64,000 nt of DNA, from positions 11,891,001 through 11,955,000 of the forward strand of contig OZ022502.1 of the NCBI GenBank assembly GCA_963989385.1, given 5' to 3'. The translations under genes and the position numbers were made by a program. This stretch comes from Ctena decussata (taxonomy: Eukaryota > Mollusca > Bivalvia > Lucinida > Lucinidae). Below are positions 16,531 to 64,000 of the stretch, piece after piece (position 1 is the stretch's first letter; each line of letters begins with the position of its first letter). A model generated the notes under the pieces. The model did no database searches. It had not been told where the DNA came from and saw nothing but the letters and a program-made list of their open reading frames with translations.

Positions 16531-16852
16531 CATAAACCACTTGACTATTAATTCTCAATTGAATTCTCTGTTTATTCTGGAGATCAGACAATTCCTAACC
16601 AGTATATTTTGGCAATAGGACATGTTTTGGTCCAGTCGAAAATGAGTTTTGCCATGGGAAAAAAACGTGCCTAATTGCATCAGCCTAAGATCAGTATGAT
16701 TTTCCATTCGCTACACATTTATATCCCAGGATCTATCTGTTCAGGCCAACAGGGAAATATCAGATCAGACTGCGCGGACGCGCAGGCTTATCTTAAAGTT
16801 AGCTTTTATTTTACACCCATAGTTCTCTCTTCTTCAACTACTGCAGATAAGA

Positions 16853-17087
16853 CGAGCCTCGACACGAGAAAACCAACAAAGTTGTTGTGCCCCCAGCGCA
16901 GACTCTGATCAGCCTGGACATTCACCCAGGCCGTTTAGACTCTTCACTAAGAGCTTTAAGGGTAGTTAAGGATCTAAGCTACATCCATGCGGACAGCGAA
17001 AACTCTGATCAGACTGGGCGAATGCCCAGGCTGATCTGAGTCTGCGCTAGATACACAACCACTATGTTGGTTTTCAGCGTCGCAGCC
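16853..17087. mobile_element. Family-A palindromic MITE
   Basis: CGAGCCTCGACACGAG at the left and GGTTTTCAGCGTCGCAG at the right, with the inner mirrored blocks GATCAGCCTGGACATTC and GGGCGAATGCCCAGGCTGAT. It lies 28 bp before the retrozyme-like repeat. Confidence 0.75.
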
Positions 17088-17157
17088 AAATTTAGTTATT
17101 TAGTCCATTGTTTCAATTATAGTATGCCTTTTCTGGTTTCGTCACCAGATTTTGTCA

Positions 17158-17203
17158 GGGTCACTGATGAGGCTTTATTAGCCGAAACTACGTAGTCTGG
17201 CCC
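17158..17203 (+). ncRNA. Type I hammerhead ribozyme, upstream copy
   Basis: The conserved core is complete. CTGATGA lies at 17164-17170. Stem II is GGC/GCC (17171-17173 and 17181-17183) with loop TTTATTA. GAA lies at 17184-17186. Stem III is formed by the palindrome ACTACGTAGT (17187-17196), then C17197 as the cleavage-site nucleotide. Stem I is GGGTCA (17158-17163) with TGGCCC (17198-17203), six pairs with one G-U. An outer stem CAGA/TCTG with internal loops is possible. Stem III can form at most three pairs and a four-base loop in one molecule, or pair between two molecules; such short stem III forms are typical of retrozyme and Penelope hammerheads. Confidence 0.88.
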
Positions 17204-17542
17204 ATACTTCTACTTCTGTATGTATTCTCTGCTCTTGAAGGAACTTTTTAAGATTTTAATTTTACCTCACTGCAGCTGGTGTTGTGCCGTGTGGCGGCCG
17301 TAAAAAGTCTCCCCGTACATCATCCATAGTGCAGAATATATTTTATTTACATCCTTTGAGATCAGAGGATAGATTCTGAGAAATCTAAAATTTGAGATCG
17401 ATTTAGACTATTATTCTAGATCATCTTCTTTTATATTATTTGGATCCTTTTGAAACTAATCAGTCTTTCTTTGAATCGACTGCCCAATTAAAATTAAGAA
17501 ATTATAGTATGCCTTTTCTGGTTTCGTCACCAGATTTTGTCA

Positions 17543-17588
17543 GGGTCACTGATGAGGCTTTATTAGCCGAAACTACGTAGTCTGGCCC
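17543..17588 (+). ncRNA. Type I hammerhead ribozyme, downstream copy
   Basis: Identical to the upstream copy. Stem I strands are GGGTCA (17543-17548) and TGGCCC (17583-17588), the core CTGATGA is at 17549-17555, stem II is GGC/GCC and stem III is ACTACGTAGT. Cleavage is predicted after C17582, exactly 385 nt from the first site. Confidence 0.88.
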
Positions 17589-17664
17589 ATACTTCTACTT
17601 CTGTATGTATTCTCTGCTCTTGAAGGAACTTTTTAAGATTTTAATTTCAATGTCTTTATTTTAC

Positions 17665-49689: not shown

Positions 49690-50020
49690 CACAGGGTATA
49701 AACCAGTGCGCCAATTTTCGCTTCCTGCAGAGACTGTACATCATATTCGGCTTCCGCCGAGACTGCCCGCGATCTCTTGCTTCCTGCTGAGACTTCTGTA
49801 CATGATACATGGCTTCCTGCAGAGACTGTCCGCGTAATTCTGCTTCCTGCCTAGGCTCTCGACAGGAAGCAGTCACGCGGACAGTCTCGGCAGGAAGCCA
49901 TTTTTCGAAGACGGTAGTCCCTGCAGGAAGCAAGAGATCGCGGACAGTCTTGGCGGAAGCCAAATATGACGGACAGTCTCTGCAGGAAGCGAAAATTTGC
50001 GGACTGGTTTATACCCTGTG
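49690..50020. mobile_element. Palindromic element built of ten 30-bp repeats, copy 1
   Basis: The ends are CACAGGGTATAAACCAGTGC and its inverted counterpart. The left half has five repeats of GCTTCCTGCNGAGACTGT starting at 49720, 49750, 49779, 49812 and 49842. The right half has five in the opposite sense ending at 49870, 49898, 49932, 49960 and 49990. The intervening 12 to 15 bases differ between repeats. A centre CTAGG joins the halves. No coding capacity; the open frames are products of the repeat. Confidence 0.85.
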
Positions 50021-56273: not shown

Positions 56274-56606
56274 CACAGGGTATAATCGATTCCGCTAATT
56301 TTCGCTTCCTGTAGAGACTATACATCATATTTGGCTTCCGCCGCGACTGTCTGCGATCTCTTACTTCCTGCCGAGACTTCTGTACATGATAAATGGCTTC
56401 CTGCAGAGACTGTCCGCGTGATTCTGCTTCCTGCCGAGGCTCTTGGCAGAAAGCAGAGTCACGCGGACAGTCTCAGCAGGAAGCCATTTTTCGAGGACAG
56501 TAGTCACTGCAGGAAGCAAGAGTTGTCGGACAGTCTCGGCGGAAGCCAAATATGACGGACAGTCTCTGCAGGAAGCGAAAATTGGCGGACTGGTTTATAC
56601 CCTGTG
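56274..56606. mobile_element. Palindromic element built of ten 30-bp repeats, copy 2
   Basis: Same as 49690-50020, nearly full length. It has the ends CACAGGGTATAA and complement, GCTTCCTGCNGAGACTGT repeats in the left half and inverted ones in the right. It begins 142 bp upstream of the lipase start codon, so it probably lies in or next to the lipase promoter or 5' UTR. Confidence 0.85.
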
Positions 56607-62336: not shown

Positions 62337-64000
62337 TTATGAACATGAGTTAAGTATAATTTTGATAAACTTACACAAATTCTTTAACTGTTTTATATTT
62401 CTTACATTCATTAATTGTTTAAATTTAATAACATTTGGTTGCCTAAAGTAATATGCCTTAATATATCGTTTTCTTTCTGAGGCTAGATGTGTGCACTCAT
62501 CAAATAATGAAATTCGTCGCCAGGAGAAATACCGCAAAGATTACATTTCCTCTCTGATATATCAGTGTTTGACCATCTCCCAGTTTCTATTGGTAAATGG
62601 TGATTTCGTGTTCGAAAAAAGCACATTATTTTTCTACAGGCATTCGGAAGTTTTAACATATAATTTTCCAATGCAAAATTTTCCTTAAAAAGACGGTAAT
62701 TAATACACGAAGAACTATCGTTAACATTTGAAAACCAGCTATTGATATACAGATCCTTATTCTTTTGTTTTATACTACGGACCAACCATCTTGGGTTCTG
62801 AACTACCTGGGCATCCCATATGCCACTAAAGCCACAATTTATGAGTATTCCTTTAATGTATTCCAACCAGGGTAATTTCTTATCTGATACCATGCTAAAA
62901 AGAAATTGGTAAAGTAAATTTGAAAATTTCAGTGAATCTGGTGCTATTAATTTAGTCCAATAATTTATCATTCTAGCTTTTATATCGATTTCGATTGGGT
63001 ATACACCAAACTCTCCGTAAATCATTATATTTGGAGTTGATTGCTTAAGGTTGAATATCGATTTAAGAAATTGTAACTGAACGCGTTCTATTAGTTTTAT
63101 GTCGCTGAAACCCCAAACTTCACAACCGTATAATAAGATAGGTTTAATCATCTAATCGAACAATTCGATTTGTAAGTCGATTGAGAGATTTAATGGATTA
63201 ATTTTCCTTAAAAGTAAAAACATCGCTTTGTTCGCCTGATCACTGTTATGTTTAATTGTCTTTGCGAACGAACCACCGCGTGAGAAAATTACTCCTAGAT
63301 ATTTAAAGAAATTTACAATTTCAATGTGTTTTGAACCAAAGTGAAACAATAAATTGTTTTTATGTTTGCCGCGACCGAAAATCATAATTTTCGTTTTATC
63401 AATATTGACCGTTAGTCTCCAGGCAGTACAATAATTTTCAAAAGTGTTTAATGCATGTTGAAGGTTATTTGCCGAATCCGCAAATATTACTGTGTCGTCC
63501 GCATATAAGAGTACAAACAGTTTAAAATACATAAACAATTCATCCGTCCGTAATGTACAATCAATACCTGCTGTATTATTTGTCCTCAGGTAGTGTTCAA
63601 GATCGTTTAAATAGATGCTAAATAAAAATGGCGACAAGTTTTCTCCTTGTCGTACCCCTATAGAGCATTGAAAAAAAGACGAAAGTTTTCCATTGACAGA
63701 AACACAGGACTTAATTCCCTGATACATATTGTATATTACTGTGAAACATTTTCCTCGAATATGCGAATTACTCAGCTTTTCCCAAAGACCCGCCCGCCAA
63801 ACTGTATCGAACGCTTTTTGGAAGTCGACGAAGGCACAATACATTTTTTTCTTATTTCTAGACATTAATTCAAATAGAGCGTGCAAAGAAAATACATTAT
63901 CTATTGTAGAGTAGTTTTTTCTAAAACCGGTCTGGTTTTCCTCTAAGAGATTAAATTCATTGGCAAATTCTTGGAGTCTGGAGTTGATTACCGAAGTAAA
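62337..64000 (-). pseudogene. LINE (non-LTR retrotransposon) reverse transcriptase, damaged, cut by the window edge
   Basis: The frame enters at 64000 and reads TGFRKNYSTIDNVFSL, then FVDFQKAFDTVW (motif A with catalytic Asp), GVRQGENLSPFLFSIYLND (motif B), YADDTVIFAD (catalytic YADD) and FKYLGVIFS. It continues through ILLYGCEVWGF to the cysteine-bearing CNLCGISPGDEFHYL tail. Two lesions interrupt it. A TAG codon at 63154-63152 lies between ELFD and MIKPILLYG. A frameshift near 62500 moves the end (ECTHLASERKRYIKAYYFRQ) into another frame, ending about 62337. An intact protein would copy its own RNA at a nicked target. This copy is probably dead in place but its damage is slight. The clade is not resolved, and the endonuclease part lies outside the window. 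Confidence 0.93.

Follow-up and report, generated by a model that had tools for sequence, protein, structure and literature searches.

Insert ends of a hammerhead retrozyme in a lucinid bivalve genome, and a parallel with its Penelope-like elements

Described retrozymes and the element in the window

Metazoan non-LTR retrozymes, including mussel elements with units of 350-390 bp, have been described as tandem units of low GC content that carry type I hammerhead ribozymes, lack LTRs and are present in many copies, with RNA circles in tissues; the part of that account drawn on here also places Penelope-like elements (PLEs) with minimal hammerheads in the same genomes (PMC7229834). PLEs have been proposed as the carriers of retrozymes, given that both have type I hammerheads, are arranged in tandem and co-exist (PMC7229834, PMC7761336), and target priming has been mentioned as one possibility, with no mapping of insert ends in the text used here (PMC7229834). 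Which enzyme copies animal retrozyme circles is an open question in these accounts (PMC7229834, PMC7761336). Pseudo-LTR hammerhead PLEs, as portrayed in the relevant portions of two studies, have a hammerhead upstream of the 3' end, an internal start of reverse transcription, partial tandems, variable or no target duplication, and optional "tail" ends (PMC11167929, PMC3846280). An internal start was described for a lizard PLE (PMC11167929), and for Penelope of A. vaga insertions occur with and without duplication, and other sequences are moved through pLTRs (PMC3846280). Plant LTR retrozymes are likewise non-coding, with two hammerheads that give circular RNA (PMC4918200, PMC7761336, PMC7229834); their hammerheads are of type III, and they have LTRs of ~350 bp, a tRNA primer site and 4-bp duplications (PMC7761336, PMC7229834).

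The window is the whole 64,000-nt stretch of DNA analysed here. As the earlier note had claimed, it contains two identical copies of a 148-nt repeat (17115-17262 and 17500-17647; 100% identity) at a spacing of 385, and the monomer predicted to be released between the two cut sites has the length of 385 nt given there. The "internal region" of 237 bp, by contrast with that note, is the remainder of the 385-nt monomer, such that the insert is a partial tandem array:

17115..17647, plus strand: whole insert, 1.38 tandem units of the 385-nt monomer
17115..17499, plus strand: unit 1, a complete monomer; monomer position 1 is 17115
17500..17647, plus strand: unit 2, partial, monomer positions 1-148
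17198..17582, plus strand: monomer predicted to be released between the cuts, 385 nt
17616..17646, plus strand: 3' terminal box ending CTTGAAGGAACTTTTTAAGATTTTAATT, placed from the 3' ends of other copies and from its likeness to PLE tails

The insert is truncated at its 5' end, and its 3' end is the fixed end of the family (monomer 147, at 17646); an internal copy of the terminal box lies at 17231-17261. A reading as an element with two LTRs was ruled out, because 5' ends scattered over the monomer leave no definable terminal repeat. The predicted monomer has 36% GC, and its longest stop-free stretch, read around the circle, is 57 aa, leaving no ORF for a reverse transcriptase (RT) or GIY-YIG protein. 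Searches of phage records and a pattern search of viral contigs each gave no matches. Immediately left of the insert, imperfect inverted and direct repeats (16742-17075) correspond to the MITE of the earlier note; the left flank of the insert has 45 matches among the fetched loci.

By its anatomy we assign the element with high confidence to the metazoan-type non-LTR retrozymes, a kind already described: unit size lies within ~150-450 bp, dimers and longer arrays occur, copies are dispersed, and GC is below 45-50%. It differs from plant LTR retrozymes in its type I hammerhead, its lack of a defined terminal repeat and its lack of a duplication signal, while sharing with them non-coding sequence and two hammerheads that are predicted to give circular RNA. 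The PLE features listed above recur in it, the internal start being putative; unlike PLEs, which code for an RT and GIY-YIG protein, the retrozyme is non-coding and has longer stems I and II. Its fixed 3' end, its arrays of one monomer and its PLE-like tail have no counterpart in the description of the metazoan elements in the text of PMC7229834 used here. The mapped ends and the parallel with PLEs are new as far as the literature searched extends.

We consider it probable that the element is a non-autonomous retrozyme whose hammerhead-cut RNA circle is copied from a fixed site, most likely by the RT of an endogenous PLE. The sequences themselves contain a fixed 3' end, scattered 5' ends, arrays of one monomer, intact hammerheads, and PLEs of similar geometry in the same genome.

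Hammerheads of the element and of its genomic copies

The motifs that the earlier note had listed (CTGATGA, stem II, GAA, a self-complementary stem III, the cleavage-site C and a six-pair stem I) can be read in both repeats. The hammerheads are of type I, with helix I as the open one; their features were read from the sequence, with base-pair counts in the copies:

17121..17208, plus strand: hammerhead 1
17121-17125 with 17204-17208, plus strand: outer stem I, AGTAT/ATACT
17133-17148, plus strand: hairpin
17158-17163/17198-17203, plus strand: inner stem I, GGGTCA/TGGCCC
17164-17170, plus strand: CTGATGA
17171-17173/17181-17183, plus strand: stem II, GGC/GCC
17184-17186, plus strand: GAA
17187-17196, plus strand: stem III palindrome, ACTACGTAGT
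17506..17593, plus strand: hammerhead 2, with the features of hammerhead 1 shifted by 385
C17197 (copy 1) and C17582 (copy 2), plus strand: predicted cut sites, after C17

The core pattern CTGANGA-N3..30-CGAAAC matches the window at these two places only, with 0.17 matches expected, and two or more matches occurred in 2 of 100 shuffles. No hammerhead reached the Rfam gathering score; when the thresholds were lowered, each copy was recognised by the Hammerhead_3 model (22.4 bits, cut-off 48.5; E 0.039). A fold of the linear monomer has -92.8 kcal/mol (z -2.24). For the 94-nt hammerhead region, the fold of lowest energy differs from a hammerhead, and energy alone therefore lends it no support.

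We sought copies in the 1.66-Gb assembly with three queries. The 533-nt insert gave at least 84 matches, from the best 40 of 1,786 first-look candidates; a 65-nt tail query gave 418 candidates, the best 40 of which were scored and were all identical to the query; and a diverged relative, met by chance in locus L074, gave 1,382 candidates, of which the best 40 were scored. First-look candidates, unconfirmed as copies, thus put the copy number at hundreds to over a thousand, and old copies are under-sampled because the scored candidates are the best ones. The main set comprises 40 loci with 42 inserts of at least 300 nt, shorter inserts and the overlapping loci L002 and L004-L008 being left out. 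The tail-query set comprises the 11 single-hit loci among 14 new ones; since the three two-hit loci were left out, this sample leans to short inserts. For the diverged subfamily, 20 of 39 non-self places were fetched.

The copies are short inserts dispersed over many contigs, with lengths of 0.19-4.9 units (0.19-1.05 in the tail-query loci), and six of them sit inside repeats whose relatives lack the insert. The genome search that the earlier note had proposed for the monomer thus returned near-identical inserts on other contigs, and dispersed copies with intact cores support its claims of retrozyme identity and mobility. Its claim of a recent insertion stands in part: identity of the two repeats is no proof of youth, since an insert's units are probably identical from the outset, but near-identical copies on other contigs favour recent activity.

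All twelve core positions are intact in 99 of 104 complete units, a statement about sequence rather than activity, and in 18 of the 21 aligned copies of the diverged subfamily, where position 17 is A in 20 copies and G in one. Units differ from the consensus by a mean of 1.2% over the core (monomer 44-89), compared with 2.6% at 149-385, 4.1% at 1-44 and 2.9% at 90-148. All 21 copies of the diverged subfamily have ACTTCGAAGT in place of ACTACGTAGT as stem III, with both bases of pair 76-79 exchanged (A-T to T-A); this double change is probably one event and not 21. The evidence for the hammerhead fold consists of core integrity across copies and this double change, by which the match is judged better than chance. 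Because pair 76-79 cannot close a two-base loop, a dimeric hammerhead is hinted at; retention of the palindrome through the double change would suggest that the ribozymes act as dimers, as in PLEs.

The number of paired variants lends the fold no support, since in a slid-pair control a shift of +2 gave more of them (97/124) than the true register (72/112). In the diverged subfamily, the hairpin pairs 20-33 and 22-31 are unpaired in 18 and 19 of 21 copies, probably through a one-base misalignment. Pair 12-89 is lost in 10 of the 21 copies, its base 89 being also part of inner stem I.

Insert ends and Penelope-like elements

By BLAST, 50 of the 53 inserts mapped have their 3' end within monomer 145-155, the misses being L041 (161), L094 (164) and L095, which meets the end of its stretch and was counted as 290. 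In the main set, 40 of 42 end at 145-151, and the other two at 155 (L042) and 161 (L041). Because the query itself ends at 148, we examined separately the arrays long enough to hold the whole query in any phase (917 nt or more, 18 arrays): 17 end at 145-151 and one at 155. Nine of the 11 tail-query inserts end at 148-155, one ends at 164 (L094, by BLAST), and one runs off the fetched stretch. Of 39 non-self matches in the diverged subfamily, 29 stop at query positions 157-161, including 21 at 158, which is monomer 147. By eye, 20 of its 21 aligned copies depart after monomer 147 and one continues into the next unit; positions 146-147 are kept in all 21, after which the commonest base is present in 10 copies at 148 and in 13 at 149. 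The fixed 3' end is 64 nt downstream of the predicted ribozyme cut, and the terminal box at 17616-17646 is the putative start of reverse transcription. A hairpin seen by eye in the tail was dropped as a candidate, as T-to-C changes break its pairing in several copies.

The 5' ends of the 42 inserts are consistent with a uniform distribution over the monomer (Rayleigh p 0.57, KS p 0.15), compared with a Rayleigh R of 0.999 for the 3' ends. None of the 53 mapped inserts begins at the cut site (monomer 83-85), ruling out as the template a cleaved linear RNA with 5' ends at the cut; each insert that spans the cut site would have needed a template that was either uncut or re-ligated. In a post hoc count, 13 of 53 5' ends lie inside the hammerhead at monomer 53-83 (17167-17197 in the window), with 4.3 expected; perhaps the enzyme stops on the folded ribozyme.

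Strict target-site duplication was ruled out, as re-paired flanks are as similar as true flanks: the mean longest match is 4.95, compared with 4.79 in re-paired flanks (largest 5.19), with no excess. In the window, the 7-mer TTTCAAT at 17111-17117 and 17645-17651 overlaps the ends of the insert and was not counted as proof of a duplication. Six inserts compared by eye with unoccupied relatives have no duplication or one of up to ~3 bases, losses of 0-14 bases, and often T-runs at the 3' junction. Similarity to these relatives is 70-84%, making single bases at the junctions uncertain. Fifteen of 42 inserts have TAT in the nine bases that follow GATTTTAA, compared with 1-10 of 42 in later windows, and TTTA occurs in 12 of 42; both excesses are mild and partly helped by the insert's own final TT, which usually supplies the first two bases. 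The retrozymes lie in ordinary DNA and the local PLEs mostly in (TA)n runs, so a target preference is not common to both.

For the GIY-YIG domain, at least 150 matches were scored of 926 candidates, and many are tandemly arranged, their ORFs being 774 or 766 aa long. In two families, PLE-B and PLE-A, the ORF pieces were assigned RVT_1 plus GIY-YIG and GIY-YIG alone, respectively; a PDB search with the 592-aa PLE-A piece gave no matches. PLE cut sites were placed by analogy, and end mapping for the genome's own PLEs excluded L047, L050, L052, L055, L056, L061, L065 and L066. In PLE-A a minimal hammerhead follows the ORF on its 3' side, and inserts end 55 nt (three loci) or 101 nt (four loci) after the inferred cut, while four loci, including the reference, run on. 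The two alternative ends, 46 nt apart, are like the optional PLE tail. In 8 of 11 PLE-B loci, a (TA)n end lies at most 77 nt behind a degenerate hammerhead; two loci (L054 and L069) have a long form in which a box lies 99 nt after the cut, and L070 is the reference. The PLE-A and PLE-B inserts that end in (TA)n are L051, L053, L057-L060, L062, L064, L067, L068, L071-L074 and L076.

The third family, PLE-C, was first seen in L052 and L070; the best 40 of 174 candidates were scored. Among its loci (L077-L084), L077 holds 2,080-bp tandem units in which an ORF1-like region is joined to a GIY-YIG domain identified by eye, and no RT was seen in the one unit read. PLE-C ends with TTTTTCAAGATT followed by TA-rich DNA in all seven fetched copies, five of them with the exact CTTTTTCAAGATTT, though the query ran five bases past the end and favoured such ends; in the tandem unit of L077 the element itself continues differently past the end point. 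Its cut-to-end distance is 89 nt in L052 (1216 to 1305). Further minimal hammerhead-like motifs, several with a palindromic stem III (ACCGGT, AGCGCT), occur in L055 (835), L062 (reversed, 2220), L061 (reversed, 2636), L065 (2758) and L067 (reversed, 2248), and probably come from other PLE-like families.

A fixed 3' end thus lies behind the hammerhead in the retrozyme (64 nt), in PLE-A (55 or 101 nt), in PLE-C (89 nt) and in the long form of PLE-B (99 nt). By our arithmetic from the numbers given for the lizard PLE, reverse transcription starts 85-92 nt after its hammerhead cut (PMC11167929).

The retrozyme tail reads GAACTTTTT-AAGATTT. Against the retrozyme box, the common form of PLE-C scores 23, reached by 16 of 16,841 AT-matched 32-mers, and PLE-B scores 24, reached by 10 of 16,841. 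One PLE-C copy, picked after the fact, matches the retrozyme tail at 16 of 17 positions with one gap, a score of 27 reached by none of 78,338 AT-matched 30-mers of the window. Placed on the whole retrozyme circle, the PLE-C tail scores best at the 3' end (23, compared with 14 elsewhere). The PLE-A tail scores at background and has no box, such that two of the three families examined have a retrozyme-like end box, PLE-B in its long form only. We regard the likeness of the boxes as suggestive.

Fixed 3' ends and 5' truncation are also typical of SINEs moved by LINEs, and an ordinary LINE RT that recognises the 3' tail might therefore move the retrozyme with no PLE involved. A LINE-like RT fragment (RVT_1) is present in the window (63152-64000, minus strand), and the retrozymes do without the (TA)n targets of the PLEs; both fit a LINE. 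Most LINE insertions carry target duplications, however, unlike the insertions described here, which have no clear ones, and it is the geometry and box of the PLEs that resemble those of the retrozyme. We consider a LINE unlikely. A PLE is the likeliest carrier, a published hypothesis that gains genomic evidence here. A narrower proposal, on which we are evenly balanced, is that a PLE protein copies retrozyme circles from the box behind the hammerhead, the retrozyme being to the PLE what a SINE is to a LINE, tail included. A fixed 3' end at a PLE-like distance, with a similar tail, makes the PLE idea concretely testable, since the RNA and the protein to be paired are now specified.

Tandem arrays and their template

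Over 17 diagnostic sites (a single 4-nt deletion accounts for four of these), the units of an array agree at 566 of 573 array-sites, and seven are mixed. Unit length is constant in 14 of 17 arrays with at least two full units and differs between arrays (378, 382, 383, 384 or 385); full units measure 378-388 nt, except one of 399. Variants private to one array occur in all its units in 39 cases and in only some in 125, the pattern expected when units copied from a single template mutate afterwards. In total, 213 array-sites differ between units of one array, and full units are 99.1% identical within arrays (38 pairs), compared with 95.9% between arrays (1,792 pairs).

Fixed 3' ends, scattered 5' ends and uniform arrays together suggest that a one-unit RNA circle is copied by target priming, always from the same internal site, and a one-unit circle would be the simplest template for such arrays. 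We propose that multimeric transcripts cut themselves at their hammerheads, as the intact core would imply, and that the monomer is closed into a circle of ~385 nt, as the genomic copies suggest. The RT would start at the fixed site 64 nt downstream of the cut, presumably primed by nicked T-rich DNA, and would run a variable distance around the circle, leaving 0.2-4.9 units in tandem that share a fixed 3' end. This RT would most likely be that of an endogenous PLE, whose own copies end ~55-100 nt after a putative hammerhead. If so, inserts longer than one unit are a genomic record of copying from circular RNA, and the length of an array reflects the distance that the RT covered on the circle.

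Alternatively, the template might be a long uncut multimeric transcript of the parental array, with cleavage irrelevant for mobility. Multimers would also give tandem copies, and hammerhead mutants of the lizard PLE inserted like wild type in vitro, which counts against a need for cleavage, as far as the part of that study used here goes (PMC11167929). Copies of a linear multimer transcribed from a homogeneous array could look like those of a circle, but mixed parent units should leave differences where nearly all diagnostic array-sites are uniform (566 of 573), so that this template fits only with uniform parent arrays; moreover, the core diverges less than the internal sequence (1.2% vs 2.6%), suggesting that cleavage matters. 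We consider an uncut template slightly less likely again than a LINE. Spread of a tandem satellite by unequal exchange at the DNA level, with the hammerhead as a passenger, would suit a tandem, non-coding, AT-rich sequence, but this outcome, against which the earlier note had wished its reading to be checked, is contradicted by short copies seen scattered across many contigs, which share one fixed 3' end while their 5' ends vary, by the six inserts inside repeats whose relatives lack them, and by the conserved hammerhead core, and is highly improbable.

Elsewhere in the window, 49720-50004 and 56463-56590 hold related 30-bp minisatellites of the GCTTCCTGCAGAGACTGTCCGC type, in opposite orientations.
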